Assembly (NCBI GenBank): GCA_021786265.1
Contig: JAJYNP010000363.1
Location: 1-6,272 of the forward strand
Source of the DNA: Chloroflexota bacterium
GTDB lineage: Bacteria; Chloroflexota; Limnocylindria; Limnocylindrales; CSP1-4
Reading direction: 5' to 3'
Length of the DNA stretch: 6,272 bases
Shown: positions 1-6,129 of the stretch, in pieces
Layout of the letters: each line of letters opens with the position of its first letter
Numbering within the stretch: the stretch's first letter is position 1
Notes under the pieces: model-generated
Told to the model about the DNA's origin: nothing
The model's input: only the letters and a program-made list of their open reading frames with translations
The model's database searches: none
Position numbers and translations under genes: made by a program

Positions 1-166
1 CCAGCCCGCGGCTCCGCGCTACTCAGGGGCTCGTCGTGACGGCGCACGGCGATCCTGGCGGCGGACCCCGCGCGCGCTCCCGGGGGTGGCAACTGGCAGG
101 AAGCTCAGCCCGCTGAACGGCCCGACCAGGTTTGCTCGACCATGCGGGCCTGCCACAATGCGGGCC
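1..166. other. Leader region upstream of the first gene, no supported gene
   Basis: No convincing gene is visible here. One forward frame is open from base 3 to a TGA at 114-116 and could be the tail of an upstream gene, but its roughly 37 residues are basic, Gly/Arg-rich and unrecognisable. The frame of the first gene is also open back to the window edge, with a GTG at 86 and ATGs at 158 and 167. The stretch from 130 to 166 holds the probable promoter of the first gene. Confidence 0.4.
132..159 (+). promoter_or_regulatory. Candidate sigma70-type promoter giving a leaderless first gene
   Basis: TTGCTC at 132-137 is followed after 16 bases by CACAAT at 154-159, a weak match to the -35/-10 consensus (3 and 4 of 6 positions). 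A transcript starting 6-7 bases after the -10 would begin at about 166-167, which is the ATG at 167. No Shine-Dalgarno sequence precedes either ATG 158 or ATG 167, so a leaderless mRNA would explain the arrangement. This is inference from weak motifs. Confidence 0.3.
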
Positions 167-1798
167 ATGACCGACCCGGAGCCGACGGTGCCGGACGTGC
201 GCGACCCGGACCCGGCCGTGCCGGACGAGCGCGACCCGGACCTGGCCGTGCCCGACGTGACCGACCCGGAGCCGACTGTGCCGGACGTGCGCGACCCGGA
301 CCCGGCCGTGCCCGACGTGCCTACCCCGGACCTGGCCGTGACCGACCCGGACCTGGCCGTGCCGGACGTGCCCGACCCGGACCCGGCCGTGCCGGACGTG
401 CGCGATCCGTCGCCGCCTCTGACCGGCACCCGCACTCCGTCGCGCCGTGGACGCGCCCGGTTCGCGCGCCTCGCCGTCGCGGTCGCGGTAGTCCTCGCGG
501 CGAGCGTGTCGGCTGTATGGATCCGCGGCGACGTTGCGCACCCGTCGGCCGCTGGGCCGAGCGCCACCGTCGCCTCGGTCCCGACGACCACGGCCGGTCC
601 GACGGCCGCGGCCGGTCCGACGACCGCGGCGGTTGCGACTCCGCTCCTGTCGCCCACGCCCGTCCCGTCGCAGGACCTCGCCGCCGAGGTTGCCGCGGTC
701 GAGGCCCAGGTGCCGCCGCTCCGCCAGCTCGAGCCCCTGCGCACCGTCCCCACGCGGATCATCGACCCCGCGCAGCTCCGCCAGTCGCTCGAGCAGCAGC
801 TCGACGCCCCGGACACCGCCGCCGCGATGGCCGCCGAGCAGGACCTCCTGGTCCGCCTCGGCCTCGCCAGTCCCGGCCTCGACCTCCGCGCCCTGTCGCT
901 GGCCACCCTCTCCTCGCAGGTCCTGGGCCTGTACGACCCCGCGACCCACTCGATGACGATCGTCAACCGCATCGGCGACTTCGGCCTGACCGCGCGCTTC
1001 ACGGTCGCGCACGAGTACACGCACGCCCTCCAGGACCAGCACTTCGACTTTGCGAAGCTCGGCGCGAACGACTCGTTCCCGACCGACCGGGTGCTGGCGC
1101 TGCACGCGCTGATCGAGGGCGACGCGACCCTGCTCAGCGGCCTGTGGATGCAGGCCCACATCTCGCTCTCCGACCTGCTGGATCTCGGACAGCTGCTCCT
1201 GCAGTCGCTTCAGCCGCCGGTGCCCCCCGGCACGCCGGCCCTGGTCAGCCGCACCCTGCTCTTCCCGTACCTCGACGGGCTGTCGTTCGTGACGGCGCTC
1301 TACCAGGAGGGCGGCTGGACGGCGGTGGACCGGGCCTACGCGCGGCCGCCGGGCTCCACGTCCGAGATCCTGCACCCCGATCGCTACCTGGCCGGCTGGC
1401 ACCCGACGCCGGTGGTCGCGCCGGCGCTCGGCAAGACTCTGGGGAGCGGCTGGACGCGCACGTATCTCGACACGATGGGGGAGCTCACGTTCCAGGTCTG
1501 GCTCGCCCAGGCGCTCCCGACTGCCGACGCGACCGGGCTGGCGGCCGACTGGCTGGGCGACCAGGTCGTGGAGTGGAACGGCCCGGCCGGCGCGTGGGTC
1601 ATCGCGTGGCGCTCGACGTGGGCGACGGCCGGCGACGCCGACGCGTTCGCGACGGCGGCCGGACGCCTGCTCGGGGCGTCGCAGGGCGCGGGTGGGGCCG
1701 GCCCCCATCTCGAGAGCGTCTCCGGCAGGACCGTCACGCTGCTGGTCGCCTCCGACCAGCCCACGCTCGACCGCGTCTCTCGGGCGGCGGGCCGCTGA
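167..1798 (+). CDS. Membrane-anchored HEXXH zinc metallopeptidase-like protein with acidic repeat N-terminus
   Basis: Predicted 543-residue type II membrane protein. Residues 3-79 are about eight decapeptides of the form DPxxxVPDVR, very acidic and Pro-rich. A basic stretch (about 91-101, RRGRARFAR) precedes one hydrophobic segment at about 99-118, so the repeats should be cytoplasmic and the rest outside. A Pro/Thr/Ala-rich stalk runs to about residue 170. The globular domain contains LGLYDP (about 253-258) and then HEYTHALQDQHFD, with H282, E283 and H286 as expected zinc ligands and catalytic Glu. An ALIEGDA motif 31 residues later offers E317 as a possible third ligand, a gluzincin-like layout. 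I do not recognise an exact peptidase family or a substrate, and no propeptide is evident. Start choice is uncertain: ATG 167 fits a leaderless transcript; ATG 158 or GTG 86 would add 9 or 27 residues lacking any family look. The next gene follows 75 bases later on the same strand. Confidence 0.8.
   Translation: MTDPEPTVPDVRDPDPAVPDERDPDLAVPDVTDPEPTVPDVRDPDPAVPDVPTPDLAVTDPDLAVPDVPDPDPAVPDVRDPSPPLTGTRTPSRRGRARFARLAVAVAVVLAASVSAVWIRGDVAHPSAAGPSATVASVPTTTAGPTAAAGPTTAAVATPLLSPTPVPSQDLAAEVAAVEAQVPPLRQLEPLRTVPTRIIDPAQLRQSLEQQLDAPDTAAAMAAEQDLLVRLGLASPGLDLRALSLATLSSQVLGLYDPATHSMTIVNRIGDFGLTARFTVAHEYTHALQDQHFDFAKLGANDSFPTDRVLALHALIEGDATLLSGLWMQAHISLSDLLDLGQLLLQSLQPPVPPGTPALVSRTLLFPYLDGLSFVTALYQEGGWTAVDRAYARPPGSTSEILHPDRYLAGWHPTPVVAPALGKTLGSGWTRTYLDTMGELTFQVWLAQALPTADATGLAADWLGDQVVEWNGPAGAWVIAWRSTWATAGDADAFATAAGRLLGASQGAGGAGPHLESVSGRTVTLLVASDQPTLDRVSRAAGR
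173..403 (+). repeat. In-frame 30-bp tandem repeat encoding acidic DPxxxVPDVR decapeptides
   Basis: Units start at 173, 203, 233, 263, 293, then a shortened 21-bp unit at 323, then 344 and 374. The encoded decapeptides alternate between DPEPTVPDVR, DPDPAVPDVR and DPDLAVPDVT variants. Units 173-202 and 263-292 differ by one base, so there is also a higher-order 90-bp duplication. All copy lengths are multiples of three, as expected if expansion and contraction were kept in frame by selection on the protein. Confidence 0.9.
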
Positions 1799-1813
1799 GG
1801 CAACGCGCCGAGG

Positions 1814-1819
1814 CATAAT
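1814..1819 (+). promoter_or_regulatory. Candidate -10 element for the secreted propeller gene
   Basis: CATAAT matches the TATAAT consensus at 5 of 6 positions and stands out in a region with almost no AT runs. It lies 16 bases after the stop of the preceding gene and would give a 5' leader of about 47 bases. No recognisable -35 hexamer sits 16-18 bases upstream, so either it is weak or another sigma factor is used. Confidence 0.4.
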
Positions 1820-1859
1820 CCGGACGTCCCGCACCGGCCATCCCATCGGGCGGGCTCAC

Positions 1860-1865
1860 GGAGGG
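1860..1865 (+). promoter_or_regulatory. Ribosome binding site that decides the GTG start at 1874
   Basis: GGAGGG lies 8 bases before the GTG at 1874. An in-frame GTG at 1865 overlaps this site and so could not use it, which favours 1874 as the true start and removes three residues from the longest frame. Confidence 0.65.
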
Positions 1866-1873
1866 TGACACAG

Positions 1874-3406
1874 GTGAGCGCCCCGCGCCGACTCGCCGCG
1901 ATCCCGGCGATCCTCCTCCTGCTGGCCACGAGCACCTCGCTCGTCACGGCGGCACAACCCCCGGCAAGCGGGGACCCCGCGCCCATCGCGCGGGGACCGC
2001 ACGTCTCGGGCGTGGTCCAGGTGATGGCGCACAAGCCGCCGCACGGCGGGGGTGGGGGAGGCGGTGGGACCGCCACGTGCGGAACGCCCGCCCCTGGCAC
2101 GAGCCCCACGAACTACATCACGAACTGCCATGGCACGGGCCGCCCGGTCAACGAGACGTGGATCGCCACCGGCAGCAGCCCCCTGTACACGGACGCCGCC
2201 GGGAACCCGGCCGCCCTGTTCGCCGGCGCGAACGACTACAACTCGTACAACGGCATCGTGCAGGACGGCTTCTACTGGTCGAGCGACGGCACGACGTGGA
2301 ACGATGCCGGTCCGATCGACGTGTTCCCGCACGCGACGTACAACGCGGCCGGCGACCCGCAGCTGGCGACCGGCGGCGGCTTCGTCTACTACAGCTCGCT
2401 GTTCTTCAACTACTACCGCTGCAACGTCGGTGGCGTGGAGCTGCTCTGGCGCGCTCCCACGAGCACGAGCTGGAGCTACTATCAGATCGCGGCCAACTCG
2501 CAGGCCCAGTTCCAGGACAAACCGGCGCTCGCGGCGGATCCGGCGCACAGCCAGGTCTTCGTCTCGTGGACGCAGTACGCGTCGTGCTCGGGGAACGGGG
2601 TTGCGTCGCCGATCCGAATCGCCGTGTTCTCGACGGGGAGCGGCAAGCCGGTCCTGCAGCAGATCCTCACCGCTCCGGGCTCTATCTACTCCCAGGGCTC
2701 CTCGATCCAGCCCGACGGCAGCGGCGGGTTCTGGATTACGTGGGAGGAGTACCCGAGCGCTACAGCGACGGCGGGCAGCGTGATGCTCGCGCACTGGCTC
2801 GGCGTGGCCGGATGGAGCTCGACGGTCCCCCAGGCCATTGCGACCGACATCGACCTGCCCAGCCCCCTGCCCGGCTTCAACTTCCGGGACAACTCCTTCC
2901 CGGTACTTGCGATGGTGGGCACCACGCCGTGGATCGCGTGGACCGACGCGGCCAGTGGCGTCGGCCAGACGCACGTGGGGACCGGCGCAGGCGCGAGCTC
3001 CCTCATCACCCTGACCGGCAACTCGGCCAGCGACAACCAGTTCTTCCCGGCCATCGTGCCTGACGGCACCGGCGGCGCCTACGTCTCGTTCAGCCAGGCC
3101 GATGGACCGTACACCACGGTCGCCGCGGGGAACAGCTACGACCAGTACGTCGTGGACGTGTCGATCTCCAGCGGGACACCGAACGCCGTGTCGACGGCGA
3201 TGGTGTCGACCGCCCCGTCGTATCCTAACCAGGACACCTTCTTCTCGGGTGGCAAGTTCATCGGCGACTACAACGGCATGACCGTGTTCGGCGCGAGCAG
3301 CTCGACCCCGCACTCGCAGCCGATCTGGACCGACATCCGCGGCCCGGAACCCGCCAGCACCGGCTACTCCGGCTACGAGATGAACTCGATGACGGCGACG
3401 CCGTAG
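1874..3406 (+). CDS. Secreted sialidase/BNR-like beta-propeller protein
   Basis: Predicted 510-residue exported protein. Residues 1-27 form a signal peptide: basic SAPRR, then a hydrophobic core with AIPAILLLLA, then a likely cleavage near VTAA. A linker with eight consecutive glycines (58-65) leads to a beta-sheet-rich, Tyr/Trp/Ser/Gly-rich domain. A canonical Asp-box (SSDGTTW, 136-142) is present. Blade-like strands recur: VFVSWTQY (228-235), GFWITWEEY (285-293), PWIAWTDA (352-359), AYVSFSQAD (402-410), PIWTDIRG (483-490). The FIGDYNG (462-468) plus WTD-R ending is typical of sialidase-superfamily propellers. A sialidase catalytic set (Arg triad, Tyr/Glu pair) cannot be assigned, so the substrate is unknown and it may be a binding or structural propeller. 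Four cysteines in the mature part (about 69, 86, 183, 238) could form disulfides. It follows the metallopeptidase gene by 75 bases but has its own -10-like site. It converges with argS. Confidence 0.8.
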   Translation: MSAPRRLAAIPAILLLLATSTSLVTAAQPPASGDPAPIARGPHVSGVVQVMAHKPPHGGGGGGGGTATCGTPAPGTSPTNYITNCHGTGRPVNETWIATGSSPLYTDAAGNPAALFAGANDYNSYNGIVQDGFYWSSDGTTWNDAGPIDVFPHATYNAAGDPQLATGGGFVYYSSLFFNYYRCNVGGVELLWRAPTSTSWSYYQIAANSQAQFQDKPALAADPAHSQVFVSWTQYASCSGNGVASPIRIAVFSTGSGKPVLQQILTAPGSIYSQGSSIQPDGSGGFWITWEEYPSATATAGSVMLAHWLGVAGWSSTVPQAIATDIDLPSPLPGFNFRDNSFPVLAMVGTTPWIAWTDAASGVGQTHVGTGAGASSLITLTGNSASDNQFFPAIVPDGTGGAYVSFSQADGPYTTVAAGNSYDQYVVDVSISSGTPNAVSTAMVSTAPSYPNQDTFFSGGKFIGDYNGMTVFGASSSTPHSQPIWTDIRGPEPASTGYSGYEMNSMTATP

Positions 3407-3420
3407 CGTCCGCACCCTGA

Positions 3421-3504
3421 GCAGCTCGGCCACCGACAGCTCGGCCGCGCCGCACGCCGCCGGCAGCTCGGCCACCGGCAGCTCGGCCGCGCCGCACGCC
3501 GCCG
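3421..3504. repeat. 42-bp tandem duplication
   Basis: Two direct copies, 3421-3462 and 3463-3504, differ at a single base (A versus G in CACCGRCAGC). Each unit itself contains CAGCTCGGCC twice, so it arose from a shorter motif. The near identity indicates a recent duplication. Confidence 0.95.
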
Positions 3505-3520
3505 GCCGCGCACGTGCCCG

Positions 3521-3724
3521 GATCGGGTTTGCACCGGGTGCACGAACGCGACGAGGCGGGCGGCCAGCGTGCCGGGTCTGTGCGTGGGACGCACAGGAAC
3601 CCCCCGGTTTGGCCCCGGCGGGCCGCTTTCGTGCGCGCCGTGCACGGGAACGACCCGAGACCCGGGCGCGGCGTCGGTTTCGTGCGCCGGGCGCAAAGCG
3701 CGGCTGGTGGCGCGGCGGACGAGT
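3521..3724. repeat. Four 51-bp units, each centred on a short hairpin
   Basis: The dyad centres are at 3536, 3587, 3638 and 3689, exactly 51 bases apart. The dyads are TGCACC-G-GGTGCA (3530-3542), CTGTGCGT-GGG-ACGCACAG (3578-3596), CGTGC-N7-GCACG (3630-3646) and TGCGCC-G-GGCGCA (3683-3695). A core of about 28 bases resembling TTTCGTGCGCCGGGTGCACG, followed by GGAACG, is recognisable in all four, while the rest of each unit has diverged. Several base changes between units preserve pairing (A/T versus G/C on both arms), which hints at selection for the dyad. Related elements may be dispersed in the genome. Confidence 0.8.
3578..3596. other. Perfect 8-bp stem, 3-base loop inverted repeat
   Basis: CTGTGCGT and ACGCACAG flank GGG. 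It is the strongest hairpin in the convergent gap. It lacks a following T run on either strand, so it is not a classical intrinsic terminator, but it could slow polymerase or protect 3' ends. Confidence 0.7.
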
Positions 3725-3726
3725 CG

Positions 3727-3903
3727 GCGGATGCGCGGCGGGCGAGGCGGCGGGCGAGTCGGCGGATGCGCGGCGGGTGCGCCCGGCGGATGCGCGGCGG
3801 GCGAGGCGGCGGGCGAGTCGGCGGATGCGCGCCGTGCACGCCCGGCGGATGCGCGGCGGGCGAGGCGGCGGGCGGGGCGGCGGATGGGTGGCGCGCCCCG
3901 GCG
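3727..3903. repeat. Three 59-bp compound tandem repeats (35-bp A plus 24-bp B modules)
   Basis: Copies begin at 3727, 3786 and 3845. Each has an A module (35 bp) and a B module (24 bp, starting at 3762, 3821, 3880), and both begin GCGGATG. A1 and A2 are identical, A3 differs at two bases, and the B modules are more variable. Because 59 is not a multiple of three, the reading frame changes at every copy, which argues against a coding role. B2 shares the 15-mer TGCGCGCCGTGCACG with the third 51-bp unit. Confidence 0.95.
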
Positions 3904-3913
3904 ACCCGCCCCG

Positions 3914-5956
3914 CTACATCGAATCCGGCGCCGAGATCCCCAGCAGCGCGAGCGTGTTGGCGAGCGCGATGCGCGTCGCCGTCACCAGCGCCAGCCGCGC
4001 GCGGGAGGTGGCCGGGTCGGCCGTGTCGATCACGCGCCGGTCCCGGTAGAAGGCGTGGAAGGCGGTCGCGAGCTCGGTCGCGTACGCGGTCACGCCCTGC
4101 GTCTCGTGCAGCGCCGCCGCGTCCTCGACCACCTCGGGAAGGCGCAGGAGGAGCTTGGCCAGGCCGAGGGCGATCTCATCGTCTCCCAGGGCGCTCGCCA
4201 GCCCCCCCGCAGCTTCGCCGTCCGCCGACTGACCCGGTGCGGCTTCGAAGCCGCCGGGACCGGACCCGGACGGCACCTGGGTAAGGCCGAGCGCCTCCTC
4301 CGCCGAAGCGGGTCGGCCGGGCGAGGCGGGTGGTCCAGCAGGCGCCGGCCCGATACCGAGCCCCGCCTCTGCGGCCTTGCGCAGGATCGAGCTGATCCGG
4401 GCGTGCGCGTACTGCACGTAGTAGACGGGGTTCTCCGACGACTGCTTCTTCGCGAGCTCGATGTCGAAGTCGATGCCGCTGGTGTGGCCACGCGCCGCGA
4501 TGAACCACCGTGCCGCGTCCACCCCGATCTCCTCGAGCAGCTCGTCGAGCGTGATGAACTCGCCCGAGCGCTTGGACATCGAGATCTCCTGGCCGTCGCG
4601 CACGAAGCGCACCCAGGCGATCAGCAGCATCTCGACCGCTGCCTTGTCGAAGCCCATCGCCTCTGCCGCGTTCCGCACGCGCGCCACGGTCCCGTGATGG
4701 TCCGCGCCCCAGACGTAGACCAGGTGGTCGAAGCCGCGGTCGAACTTCTGCAGCAGGTAGCCGATGTCCGACCCGAAGTAGGTGAACTGGCCGTTGGAGC
4801 GGCGCACCACGCGATCCTTGTCGTCGCCGAAGGCGGTCGATCGGAACCAGAGCGCGCCGTCCTGCTCGTAGAGCCAGCCTCCGGCCTGGAGGCGCTCGAT
4901 GGCACGGTCGACCCAGCCGTCGCGGTACAGCGAGCCCTCGCTGGTCCAGACGTCGAAGCGGACGCCGAGACGAGCCAGGCTGGCCTCGATGCCCTGGCGC
5001 ACGCGCTCCGATGCCCACTGGCCGATCATCGCGTCGGCCTCCGTGCCGGTCTCCAGGGCGCGGGCGAGGATCTCGTCGGGGAGCTGCGCCGCGAGGTCGT
5101 GGACGTACGCGCCGCGATAGCCGTCCTCGGGGATGGGGCGCTCTTCGCGGATGGCGAGCACCGACGAGCCGAGCTGGCGGACCTGTGAGCCGAAGTCGTT
5201 GAAGTAGTACTCGCGGGTGACCTGCTGGCCGGCGGCCTCCAGCACGCGGCACAGGAGGTCACCGACGAATGCGCCGCGGGCGTTGCCGATGTGGAGGGGC
5301 CCGGTGGGGTTGGCCGACACGAACTCGACGTTGACGTGCCGGGGGCGGGCGGCGGCGCGGCCGGCGGCGGGGGCGACGGGGGCGACGGGGGCGCGGCCGA
5401 AGGCGGGGGCGACGGGGGCGGCGGGGCCGGGAGCGCCGGGGGCGACTCCAGCGGCCGCCGGGCCGCCCATGGCCGACACCCGGCCGAACGTGGGGCCGGC
5501 GGCGAGGGCGGCCTCCACGGCGCGGAGGACCGCCGCCGGGGCGAGGCGCAGGTTGAGGAAGCCGGGCGGGGCAACCTCCACCGATCCGATTGGGCTGTCG
5601 GGGCTCGGGTCGCGCCGCAACTCGTCCGCGATGGCGCCGGCGATGGCCATGGGGCTGCGGCGGAGGGGCCGGGCGAGCTTCAGGGCCAGGTTCGAGGCGA
5701 AGTCGCCATGTTCCGGGTTGTCGGGGCGGGTGACCTCGACCTCGATGGCGGGCTGGTCGGCGGGGGCGGCGGGGAGGGTGCCGTTCTCGACTGCATGCGC
5801 CCACGCCCGCTCGACCGCCTCGCGTGCTCGGGTGCGCAACGAGGGAGCTGCGTCGGGCGCCAGCCGGGCAGCCGCGCCCGCGTCGGTCGCCAGCCGGGCA
5901 GTCGCGCCTGCGTCGGTCGCGCCTGCGTCGGTCGCCGGGTCGTCGCGGTCGATCAC
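3914..5956 (-). CDS. argS: Arginyl-tRNA synthetase
   Basis: Cytoplasmic class I synthetase that charges tRNA-Arg with arginine using ATP. In the 680-residue product, an Ala/Asp-rich extension (1-36) precedes the ArgS N-terminal (tRNA D-loop recognition) domain, with NPEHGDFASNLALKLA at about 80-95. The catalytic Rossmann domain has VSANPTGPLHIGNARGA with HIGN at 222-225, WGADHHG at about 416-422 and the KMSKS-equivalent MSKRS at 460-464. The alpha-helical DALR anticodon-binding domain starts near YYVQYAHARISSILRKA (512-528), and the protein ends LLGISAPDSM, as the family typically does. Usual length is about 550-600 residues; the excess comes from the N-terminal extension, a Pro/Ala linker (about 160-206) and a Gly/Pro/Ala insertion (about 533-590). 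GTG 5956 is chosen because GGAGG sits 6 bases upstream; an in-frame ATG at 6088 would add 44 residues without family resemblance. Confidence 0.97.
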   Translation of the reverse strand: MIDRDDPATDAGATDAGATARLATDAGAAARLAPDAAPSLRTRAREAVERAWAHAVENGTLPAAPADQPAIEVEVTRPDNPEHGDFASNLALKLARPLRRSPMAIAGAIADELRRDPSPDSPIGSVEVAPPGFLNLRLAPAAVLRAVEAALAAGPTFGRVSAMGGPAAAGVAPGAPGPAAPVAPAFGRAPVAPVAPAAGRAAARPRHVNVEFVSANPTGPLHIGNARGAFVGDLLCRVLEAAGQQVTREYYFNDFGSQVRQLGSSVLAIREERPIPEDGYRGAYVHDLAAQLPDEILARALETGTEADAMIGQWASERVRQGIEASLARLGVRFDVWTSEGSLYRDGWVDRAIERLQAGGWLYEQDGALWFRSTAFGDDKDRVVRRSNGQFTYFGSDIGYLLQKFDRGFDHLVYVWGADHHGTVARVRNAAEAMGFDKAAVEMLLIAWVRFVRDGQEISMSKRSGEFITLDELLEEIGVDAARWFIAARGHTSGIDFDIELAKKQSSENPVYYVQYAHARISSILRKAAEAGLGIGPAPAGPPASPGRPASAEEALGLTQVPSGSGPGGFEAAPGQSADGEAAGGLASALGDDEIALGLAKLLLRLPEVVEDAAALHETQGVTAYATELATAFHAFYRDRRVIDTADPATSRARLALVTATRIALANTLALLGISAPDSM
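4187..4360 (-). other. Low-complexity insertion within the ArgS anticodon-binding domain
   Basis: This codes for about 58 residues rich in Gly, Pro, Ala and Ser, between the first helix pair of the DALR domain (SSILRKAAEAG) and the conserved helix DDEIALGLAKLLLRLPEVVE. Most ArgS proteins have only a short loop here. It is open in the gene's frame with no stop, and conserved sequence resumes in frame on both sides, so it is an insertion and not a frameshift. Confidence 0.75.
5339..5479 (-). other. Pro/Ala repeat linker between ArgS N-terminal and catalytic domains
   Basis: This codes for about 47 residues dominated by Ala, Pro, Gly and Val, with an internal GRAPVAPVAPA-type repeat. At DNA level it is built of GGGGGCGAC-like units. 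It falls exactly between the end of the N-terminal domain (AAGPTFGRV) and the start of the catalytic domain (VNVEFVSANPTG), a place where an interdomain tether can be tolerated. Confidence 0.75.
5859..5933 (-). repeat. 30-bp in-frame tandem repeat in the ArgS N-terminal extension
   Basis: There are two full copies (5859-5888 and 5889-5918, two mismatches) plus a half copy (5919-5933). They encode ATDAGAAARL-type decapeptides just after the start codon, before the first helix of the conserved N-terminal domain. The period equals that of the unrelated repeat in the metallopeptidase gene. Confidence 0.85.
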
Positions 5957-5960
5957 AATC

Positions 5961-5967
5961 TTCCTCC
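5961..5967 (-). promoter_or_regulatory. Strong Shine-Dalgarno site of argS
   Basis: On the minus strand this reads GGAGGAA, with the GGAGG core 6 bases before the GTG at 5956-5954. It fixes the argS start and rules out the longer in-frame ATG frame from 6088. Confidence 0.8.
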
Positions 5968-6129
5968 AGGGGCCGCGCGTGGTGCCAGCCGACAGGTGAG
6001 CGGCCACCTGCGCGGCGGGTATGCGTCCGCCGGCCGGCGTAAAGCTCACGGCCTGCCGGACGGGCCAATGGTAGGCCGGCAACGGCATGGTCCGCGGCTC
6101 AGGGCACGCGGCCGGTTGCCTTCGCCCGG

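Follow-up and report, generated by a model that had tools for sequence, protein, structure and literature searches.

A tract between two convergent genes of a Chloroflexota bacterium is probably a copy of a dispersed intergenic element with helically phased palindromes

Why is the space between two bacterial genes filled with repeats, and does any of this sequence have a function? These questions are raised by a stretch of 6,272 nucleotides from a Chloroflexota bacterium (contig JAJYNP010000363.1 of assembly GCA_021786265.1), which we analysed as a whole and will refer to as the window. The window contains three genes, encoding a peptidase-like protein, a 513-amino-acid protein and arginyl-tRNA synthetase (ArgS; Table 1). 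A preliminary description of the window reported that the last two genes converge and that three different tandem arrays, with periods of 42, 51 and 59 bp, lie back to back between them. It considered such tiling to be unusual for a bacterial intergenic region, and suggested that the gap might be a buffer for convergent transcription, a slippage hotspot, or an unrecognised structured RNA. The convergent gene pair was borne out: the stops at 3406 and 3914 leave a gap of 507 bp (3407-3913) with a GC content of 82%.

Table 1. Features of the window. Positions are counted from its first nucleotide.
Feature	Position	Strand	Remarks
Zinc-peptidase-like protein	86-1798	+	HExxH motif (by eye); no Pfam match
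513-aa protein ("propeller" of the preliminary description)	1865..3406	+	Left convergent neighbour; no Pfam match
Period-42 tandem array	3421..3506	+	Minisatellite, slippage type; TRF: 2.0 copies, 97% match, score 165
Phased-dyad element, probable copy	3524..3701	.	Dyad centres 51-51-51 bp apart (each step about 5 helical turns); outer ends estimated with the help of copies from other genomes
Dyad P1 TGCACCGGGTGCA	3528..3544, centre 3536	.	12/14 motif positions
CGTC tag	3550..3553	-	Inner side of P1, 5 nt away
Dyad P2 TGCGTGGGACGCA	3579..3595, centre 3587	.	12/14 motif positions
Dyad P3 TGCGCGCCGTGCA	3630..3646, centre 3638	.	14/14 motif positions
CGTC tag	3672..3675	+	Inner side of P4, 5 nt away
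Dyad P4 TGCGCCGGGCGCA	3681..3697, centre 3689	.	12/14 motif positions
Period-59 G-rich tandem array	3725..3893	+	Minisatellite; TRF: 2.9 copies, 91% match, score 282
Exact 15-nt duplicate of the P3 dyad (3632-3646)	3826..3840	+	Inside the 59-bp array; repeat D3; dyad centre 3832
argS, arginyl-tRNA synthetase	3914..6088	-	Right convergent neighbour; Pfam DALR_1, tRNA-synt_1d, Arg_tRNA_synt_N

We ran TRF on the window, as the preliminary description had proposed, and it recovered the 42- and 59-bp periods, both as recognisable head-to-tail copies. These two arrays look like lineage-specific slippage minisatellites. At a minimum score of 30, TRF reported no array with a period of 51 bp, and the units of that tract are 35-51% identical to each other, so recognisable head-to-tail copies are missing there. 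Thus, two of the three arrays stand and the third does not, and the observation as a whole was partly confirmed. The claim that the tiling is unusual for an intergenic region holds in part, as the window's genes contain minisatellites as well: they account for 8.0% of its coding bases, versus 1.0% in 28 control argS loci, with coding bases defined by a home-made scorer of codon positions rather than a trained gene finder. In the gene for the peptidase-like protein, a 30-bp array at 172-409 encodes a PDP/DPDP-type repeat near the N terminus. The argS gene contains two large low-complexity insertions, rich in alanine, proline and glycine (about 5357-5478 and 4199-4360), that are missing from the argS of the related genome G001. 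The first of these overlaps TRF arrays at 5340-5446, and the insertions represent minisatellite growth within an essential gene.

What, then, is the tract in the middle of the gap? It consists of four units in register, starting at 3522, 3573, 3624 and 3675. Among the lags of the middle region, self-match is highest at 51 bp (0.47); none of 500 shuffles reached this value at lag 51, and 3.2% of shuffles reached it at some lag. Each unit contains a palindrome, or dyad, with the core TGC-RYNNNRY-GCA in identical register (P1 to P4 in Table 1). The in-register palindrome score is 21 of 24, which none of 1000 shuffles equalled (the best had 19), and when the gap was shuffled 2000 times, a cluster of at least four dyads arose once. 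We rejected a protein-coding repeat with a unit of 17 codons, as the mismatches between units show no bias by codon position in any frame.

If all three tracts were functionless slippage products, then the gap would be an ordinary tiling of minisatellites in a GC-rich intergenic region. This is true of the 42- and 59-bp arrays, and the window is rich in minisatellites, both coding and non-coding. For the middle tract, however, this explanation is already disfavoured, because its units have diverged so far and yet keep their palindromes in register, and because related elements are present at many unrelated loci (see below). Slippage accounts for the flanking arrays but not for the middle tract, and as an explanation of the whole gap we consider it very improbable. 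The duplicate of P3 within the 59-bp array has its centre 143 bp from that of P4 (about 14 turns), and it might represent either a fifth dyad or a gene-conversion patch.

The preliminary description also proposed that a function would be supported if the arrays were conserved at the same junction in related genomes. We searched for argS across 177 genomes of the class, and the closest relative that we found was G093, whose argS is 94% identical over its full length. In G093, the peptidase gene faces argS across 49 bp, with neither the propeller gene nor any arrays between them. When we searched with the 513-amino-acid protein, we reached one Chloroflexi MAG (L001, genome G001); among the 177 class genomes, 3 had a propeller match, and just one of these was close. 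In G001, the gene after argS has the same orientation, the short gap between the two is free of arrays, and the propeller homologue is on a 4.2-kb contig that has neither argS nor arrays like the window's. In G005, the contig stops just beyond argS and is uninformative for the junction. Because the arrays are missing from both G093 and G001, they are not conserved at the junction. They thereby fail the refutation test set in the preliminary description, and we rejected the three tandem arrays as a single functional zone.

A few other features of these junctions are worth recording. Comparing 1799-3913 of the window to 906-954 of L009, the propeller gene and the arrays together form a segment of about 2.1 kb, flanked by the peptidase gene and argS, that may be present or absent. 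The G093 bin has two argS genes (C136 and C32), which are 94% and 77% identical to the window's, and the 3.1-kb contig with the close argS may have entered the bin as a contaminant. A 13-bp hairpin of G001, close to the 3' end of argS (L006, 3681-3718; seen by eye) and either ahead of the next gene or at its start, is a candidate terminator.

Sequences like the middle tract are present elsewhere in the class. A covariance model (R1) built from the four window units was searched in six relatives and had 11 matches in G068 and 0-3 in the five other genomes, with a best E value of 0.04. Matches in G093, G005 and G057 fall within long open frames and were discarded. Of the nine G068 loci found via R1 that we examined, six contain several similar palindromes. 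A first strict hairpin pattern had no matches in three genomes. In a scan of the class, the pattern TCGTGCRYCNGRYGCA matched 24 times in G019 (0 for the reversed control) and 8 times in G068 (2 for the control); G019 is an independent test and G068 is not, because the window and G068 had already been inspected when the pattern was drawn up. We also used a pattern for two dyads with a free gap of 12-42 bases, which permits centre spacings of 25 to 55 bp. This double-dyad pattern had 125 matches, versus 5 for the reversed control, in 18 of the 177 class genomes (both strands were counted, so a single place can contribute two matches). No strict double-dyad match was present in the nearest relatives, G093, G005 and G001.

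We scanned 41 loci with a more tolerant dyad motif: the window, 20 loci from G019 and G068, and 20 loci from G044, G021, G089, G002, G164 and G078. This identified 39 clusters of at least three dyads, while the reversed motif gave none. Because these loci had been picked for holding dyad pairs or matches to the dyad pattern, the contrast shows the specificity of the motif, not the frequency of the clusters. In 73 background loci (239.5 kb), there was no cluster of at least three dyads. The commonest size is exactly four dyads, as in 24 of the 39 clusters.

In several genomes the members of this family are discrete units. When 40 element loci were compared by BLAST (E 1e-8), 25 proved to have a bounded stretch in common with another copy in their own genome. 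These stretches around the dyads are mostly 150-260 bp long and 67-86% identical; three are shorter (57-83 bp), and one is 382 bp at 91% identity. The other 15 loci, and the window copy, matched no other copy at this threshold. In G019, 20 half-units align without gaps across 65 columns, and both G019 and G044 elements have inverted halves. Among six copies in G044, identity is 85% within the dyads and falls to 46% in the spacers and to 36% outside, where chance would give 31%. In other words, these copies lie in unrelated surroundings, and their spacers have drifted whereas their dyads are conserved. The 382-bp stretch (L135, 981-1361, and L139, 1327-1708) surrounds two G068 elements at different places and is a recent duplication that exceeds the size of the element. 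Two G044 elements adjoin paralogous stretches of 1.3 kb that are 77% identical (L176, 13-1327, and L178, 2048-3368).

Similar searches also turned up other kinds of sequence. BLAST of the middle tract against the 177 genomes gave matches in 5 genomes at E 1e-4 (the gap itself was compared by BLAST to five genomes). We examined three of the matches outside argS, and two of these (L040 and L071) look coding and were rejected; the third (L072 in G085, about 1501-1540) looks non-coding and has a CGTGC-N7-GCACG palindrome. Across the phylum, 32 of 400 genomes match the double-dyad pattern; G055, G025 and G068 are members of the class, and the other 29, from outside it, show no spacing ladder of the kind described below. 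At four out-of-class loci (L197, L198, L199 and L202), GTGC...GCA-type palindromes form true tandem arrays, the periods being 42, 42, 21 and 48 bp, and the out-of-class genome G262 has paired GTGCGTTTTGCGCA-type palindromes on three contigs, which are a different family. Among viral contigs, 13 stretches match the double-dyad pattern; only L213 has a cluster of at least three dyads, and this is a 30-bp repeat inside an open frame, so we set the viral candidates aside.

Does the window copy belong to this family? We built profiles from the other genomes only (G044, G019 and G068), and their best matches in the whole window lie within 3519-3698. The G044 profile gave 18.5, 15.3 and 14.4 bits (E 5e-4 to 0.01), and the highest-scoring of 50 shuffled gaps reached 7.4 bits. 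The G068 profile gave up to 12.0 bits (6.3 for shuffled gaps), the G019 profile 9.9 bits (5.3), and a profile of the G068 outer dyad with its flank 9.6 bits (3.3); the E values of these three weaker profiles range from 0.04 to 0.41. The window copy is clearly recognised by G044, and weakly by G068 and G019.

The tetranucleotide CGTC played no part in any of our searches. At 5 nt from the dyad edge there are 2 tags for the 4 dyads of the window, 18 for 36 in G068, 8 for 29 in G044, and 3 for 6 in G089. In G068 and G044, this is the commonest offset of the tag. At the same offset the tag is sparser in G002 (3 for 20), G164 (1 for 7), G019 (1 for 43), G021 (0 for 10) and G078 (0 for 4).

In design, the element is a small array of 17-bp dyads, with four as the commonest number. 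The dyads have the consensus CGTGCRYNNNRYGCACG, and their centres are whole helical turns apart. In the strict double-dyad scan of the class, and among the places listed, the centres are 30, 40-41 or 49-52 bp apart at 58 of 68 places, and the best period is 10.9 bp, with a broad optimum at 10.5-11. The tolerant scan gave 235 distances over the 41 loci, for which the best period is 10.3 bp (R = 0.76). These distances fall at about 30, 40/41, 50/51, 61-63, 71/72, 81/82 and 91-93 bp, and the comb continues at about 102-105, 111-115, 121-123, 132-134, 142-145 and 152-155 bp; a few distances fall in between.

Spacings are not independent of each other, because the copies inside one genome are related by descent. 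We counted each distinct spacing between neighbours once per genome, omitting G006 and G118 (simple repeats). Among the places listed, and after three spacings shorter than 25 bp had been left out, there were 46 distinct spacings, of which 39 are within 1.5 bp of the 10.3-bp comb, versus 28% expected. The seven off-comb spacings are 75, 55 and 105 bp, and also 50 bp in four genomes, which misses by 1.5 bp. A similar test per genome on the strict pattern, with its range of 25-55 bp, was weaker (16 of 28 distinct values on the comb, p = 0.002, among the places listed). For comparison, over the same range and again among the places listed, 12 of 34 spacings were on the comb in the 29 out-of-class genomes, which is at chance level and not significant.

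Genomes differ in which rungs of this ladder they use. Spacings of 40-62/63-40 bp in 6 of 12 G019 elements, and of 41-63-41 bp in 6 of 7 G044 elements, both correspond to 4-6-4 turns. In G068, 5 of 9 loci have spacings of 62-93-30 bp, in either direction (6-9-3 turns), and one G002 copy has 51-51-62 bp. The 5-5-5 arrangement of the window copy is the sole instance that we saw.

Placement of the elements was judged with the same home-made scorer of codon positions, not with a trained gene finder. By these rough calls the family is intergenic: all 42 elements, including the window's, overlap no called gene, and three of them have no gene called on either side. Genes were called on both sides of 31 elements, with 13 in convergent, 14 in tandem and 4 in divergent arrangement, and the other 11 are at contig edges or lack a call. 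(An earlier and partly overlapping tally of 34 clusters, which did not include the window, had 7 convergent, 11 tandem, 3 divergent and 13 at edges.) On a chromosome, one expects as many convergent as divergent pairs, so promoters look to be avoided, if modestly. We checked 10 of the roughly 70 called neighbouring genes, and these are mutually unrelated: they encode two ABC transporter proteins, an amidohydrolase, a transglutaminase, an FG-GAP protein, a histidine kinase, an enolase-like protein, DNA polymerase A, dihydroorotate dehydrogenase, and a protein with helix-hairpin-helix and OB-fold domains.

Phased dyads are a typical feature of operators, so the tract could be an operator array for a transcription factor that controls the neighbouring genes. 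However, the divergent arrangement is the rarest (4 of the 31 elements with both neighbours called), the ten checked neighbours share no relationship, and the window copy sits between two 3' ends. We view this as the least probable of the explanations that we considered, with very little chance of being correct.

The excess of convergent over divergent placements (13 versus 4) would fit another explanation, in which the four hairpins act in the transcript, as a structured RNA or as a bidirectional terminator at convergent 3' ends. Also, the middle tract folds better than its shuffles (z = -2.6). On the other hand, we found no intrinsic terminator (a GC-rich stem and a run of T) within 3200-4100, and no match to Rfam covariance models in the gap, even at E 5. 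Co-variation was not above that of shuffles, either in the 20 half-units from G019 or in the four window units; in the dyad consensus, R on one side and Y on the other are tolerated independently. Nor are G-T pairs favoured over A-C pairs: there are 21 versus 28 in 15 elements, as counted on plus strands, which may not be the transcribed strands. If the two halves of an element paired in RNA, they should complement each other better than halves of different elements do, but the values are 0.52 (same element) versus 0.59 (different elements) in G019 and 0.48 versus 0.52 in G044. Furthermore, the period of the ladder is that of B-DNA. We therefore reject a structured RNA or terminator, as proposed in the preliminary description, as quite improbable despite the folding score. 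The lack of RNA-type signals, together with a comb at the B-DNA repeat, favours dyads that are read in double-stranded DNA.

Overall, the sequence data suggest that the middle tract (about 3524-3701) is probably a copy of a dispersed, non-coding intergenic element of this Chloroflexi-like class, which would be a non-autonomous repeat carrying putative protein-binding dyads on one face of the helix. We propose that a putative dimeric DNA-binding protein would occupy each dyad, so that the dimers would be side by side on one face of the double-stranded DNA. Neighbouring dimers would contact each other, and binding would probably be cooperative. Under this proposal, insertions and deletions survive mainly in whole-turn steps because the dimers share one face of the helix and touch each other. 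For a protein-bound array of dyads, the helical ladder is the sole support for binding on one face. Several observations weigh against this explanation: the window copy has a set of spacings that we saw nowhere else, three of its dyads match 12 of 14 motif positions, three of four profiles score it weakly, the nearest relatives lack strict double-dyad matches, 15 of 40 loci match no other copy by BLAST, and the spacings come in part from related copies and from loci picked for their dyads. The element may serve as a chromosome-organising or gene-boundary site, which would fit its placement. It would spread as a non-autonomous repeat, and the bounded units and inverted halves are compatible with spread by a transposase. 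As for the suggestion that something in the gap is functional, this seems to hold for the middle tract but not for a buffer made of three heterogeneous tandem arrays, given the unconserved junction; as a whole, the preliminary interpretation is partly supported.

More tentatively, the elements might represent a kind of chromosome site that is new, namely dispersed elements at gene boundaries, on which a putative dimeric architectural protein would bind about four phased dyads to form a short nucleoprotein block, straight or looped. We regard this as possible but somewhat doubtful. On this same reading, neighbouring dyads would be tolerated at any of 3 to 12 whole turns but seldom at half turns, so that selection would see their phase rather than the sequence that separates them.

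Alternatively, the dyads might be the binding sites of the element's own putative transposase. The element would then be MITE-like and non-autonomous, the ladder would reflect assembly of the transposition complex, and there would be no function for the host. (This and the phased protein-binding element overlap as to how copies spread, so their probabilities need not sum to 1.) Several observations are as expected for a MITE-like element, including the bounded units with copies at unrelated places, the inverted half-units, the patchy presence (18 of 177 genomes) and the absence from the orthologous junction. However, diverged copies, such as those in G044 with 46% identity between dyads, still have their dyads and spacing, and a dead element would lose both. 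Also, the classes of spacing vary among genomes, and RAYT-type transposases are missing from all 177. We consider it unlikely that the elements are MITE-like with no host function.

If our preferred explanation of phased protein-binding dyads is true, then an uncultured class of bacteria has a dispersed DNA element with a design rule that is readable from sequence alone, namely dyads at whole helical turns. It would point to a putative cooperative DNA-binding protein, and the element would be a concrete bait for finding the binder. It would also be a REP-like extragenic repeat that has no RAYT transposase and is constrained by the geometry of double-strand binding rather than by a hairpin, and this would bear on the long-open question of why extragenic palindromes are kept.

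How does the element compare to known repeats? In the open-licence literature (best-ranked titles and the starts of abstracts), we found no account of elements like these in Chloroflexi, nor of interspersed palindromes with helical phasing; two surveys of stem-loop families are available (PMC2267715, PMC1590033). The family is best read as little-known or undescribed. The closest kind is REP/BIME/REPIN, the RAYT-linked GTAG superfamily, which, as described in PMC2817692 and PMC3733652, are also short extragenic palindromes that are dispersed, grouped and partly inverted. Indeed, all 42 of our elements are dispersed and lie outside the home-made gene calls. BIMEs bind proteins such as IHF and gyrase (PMC2817692), and GTAG repeats have been reported from Chloroflexi too (PMC3733652). 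Unlike REPs and BIMEs, the phased-dyad element has no GTAG at a shared offset, no Y1 transposase, and dyads on a 10.3-bp ladder. GTAG is near just a few dyads (1 in G019, 1 in G044 and 2 in G164), at varying offsets. The RAYT (Y1) transposase family, PF01797, had no match in the 177 class genomes, a set that does not include the window's own genome, and this led us to reject RAYT-driven REPs; a control search for PF01797 was positive in E. coli and four other named genomes.

CGTC-tagged REPs are palindromes with the CGTC tetranucleotide and no dedicated transposase (PMC3733652). In our elements, which are palindromes as well, CGTC is 5 nt from many dyads in some genomes but not in all. In CGTC-tagged REPs, however, a stem of 8-9 bp that starts with AT pairs, a loop of 4-5 and a CCA-like tail are the rule (PMC3733652), while in the phased-dyad element the tag is 5 nt off a 17-bp dyad and is missing from many dyads, and the rules for stem, loop and tail differ. 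By eye, the consensus dyad has no such start to its stem. PMC3733652 lists five phyla with CGTC repeats, with Chloroflexi not among them, and the word "helical" does not occur in its main text.

As with MITEs and other small interspersed repeats, the phased-dyad element is a bounded non-coding unit, mostly of 150-260 bp, whose halves are inverted and whose copies occupy unrelated places. The bounded unit was seen at 25 of 40 loci, with the window not among these, and the inverted halves in G019 and G044. Unlike MITEs, it has no known transposase, and its internal dyads and their helical spacing are under a function-like constraint. Finally, matS, parS and nucleoid-occlusion sites are palindromes that are scattered over the chromosome and are bound by a dimeric protein. 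By description, the phased-dyad element is similar to these in that it too consists of scattered palindromes; it differs in having no known binder, and in that its loci most often have four sites at whole-turn spacing.
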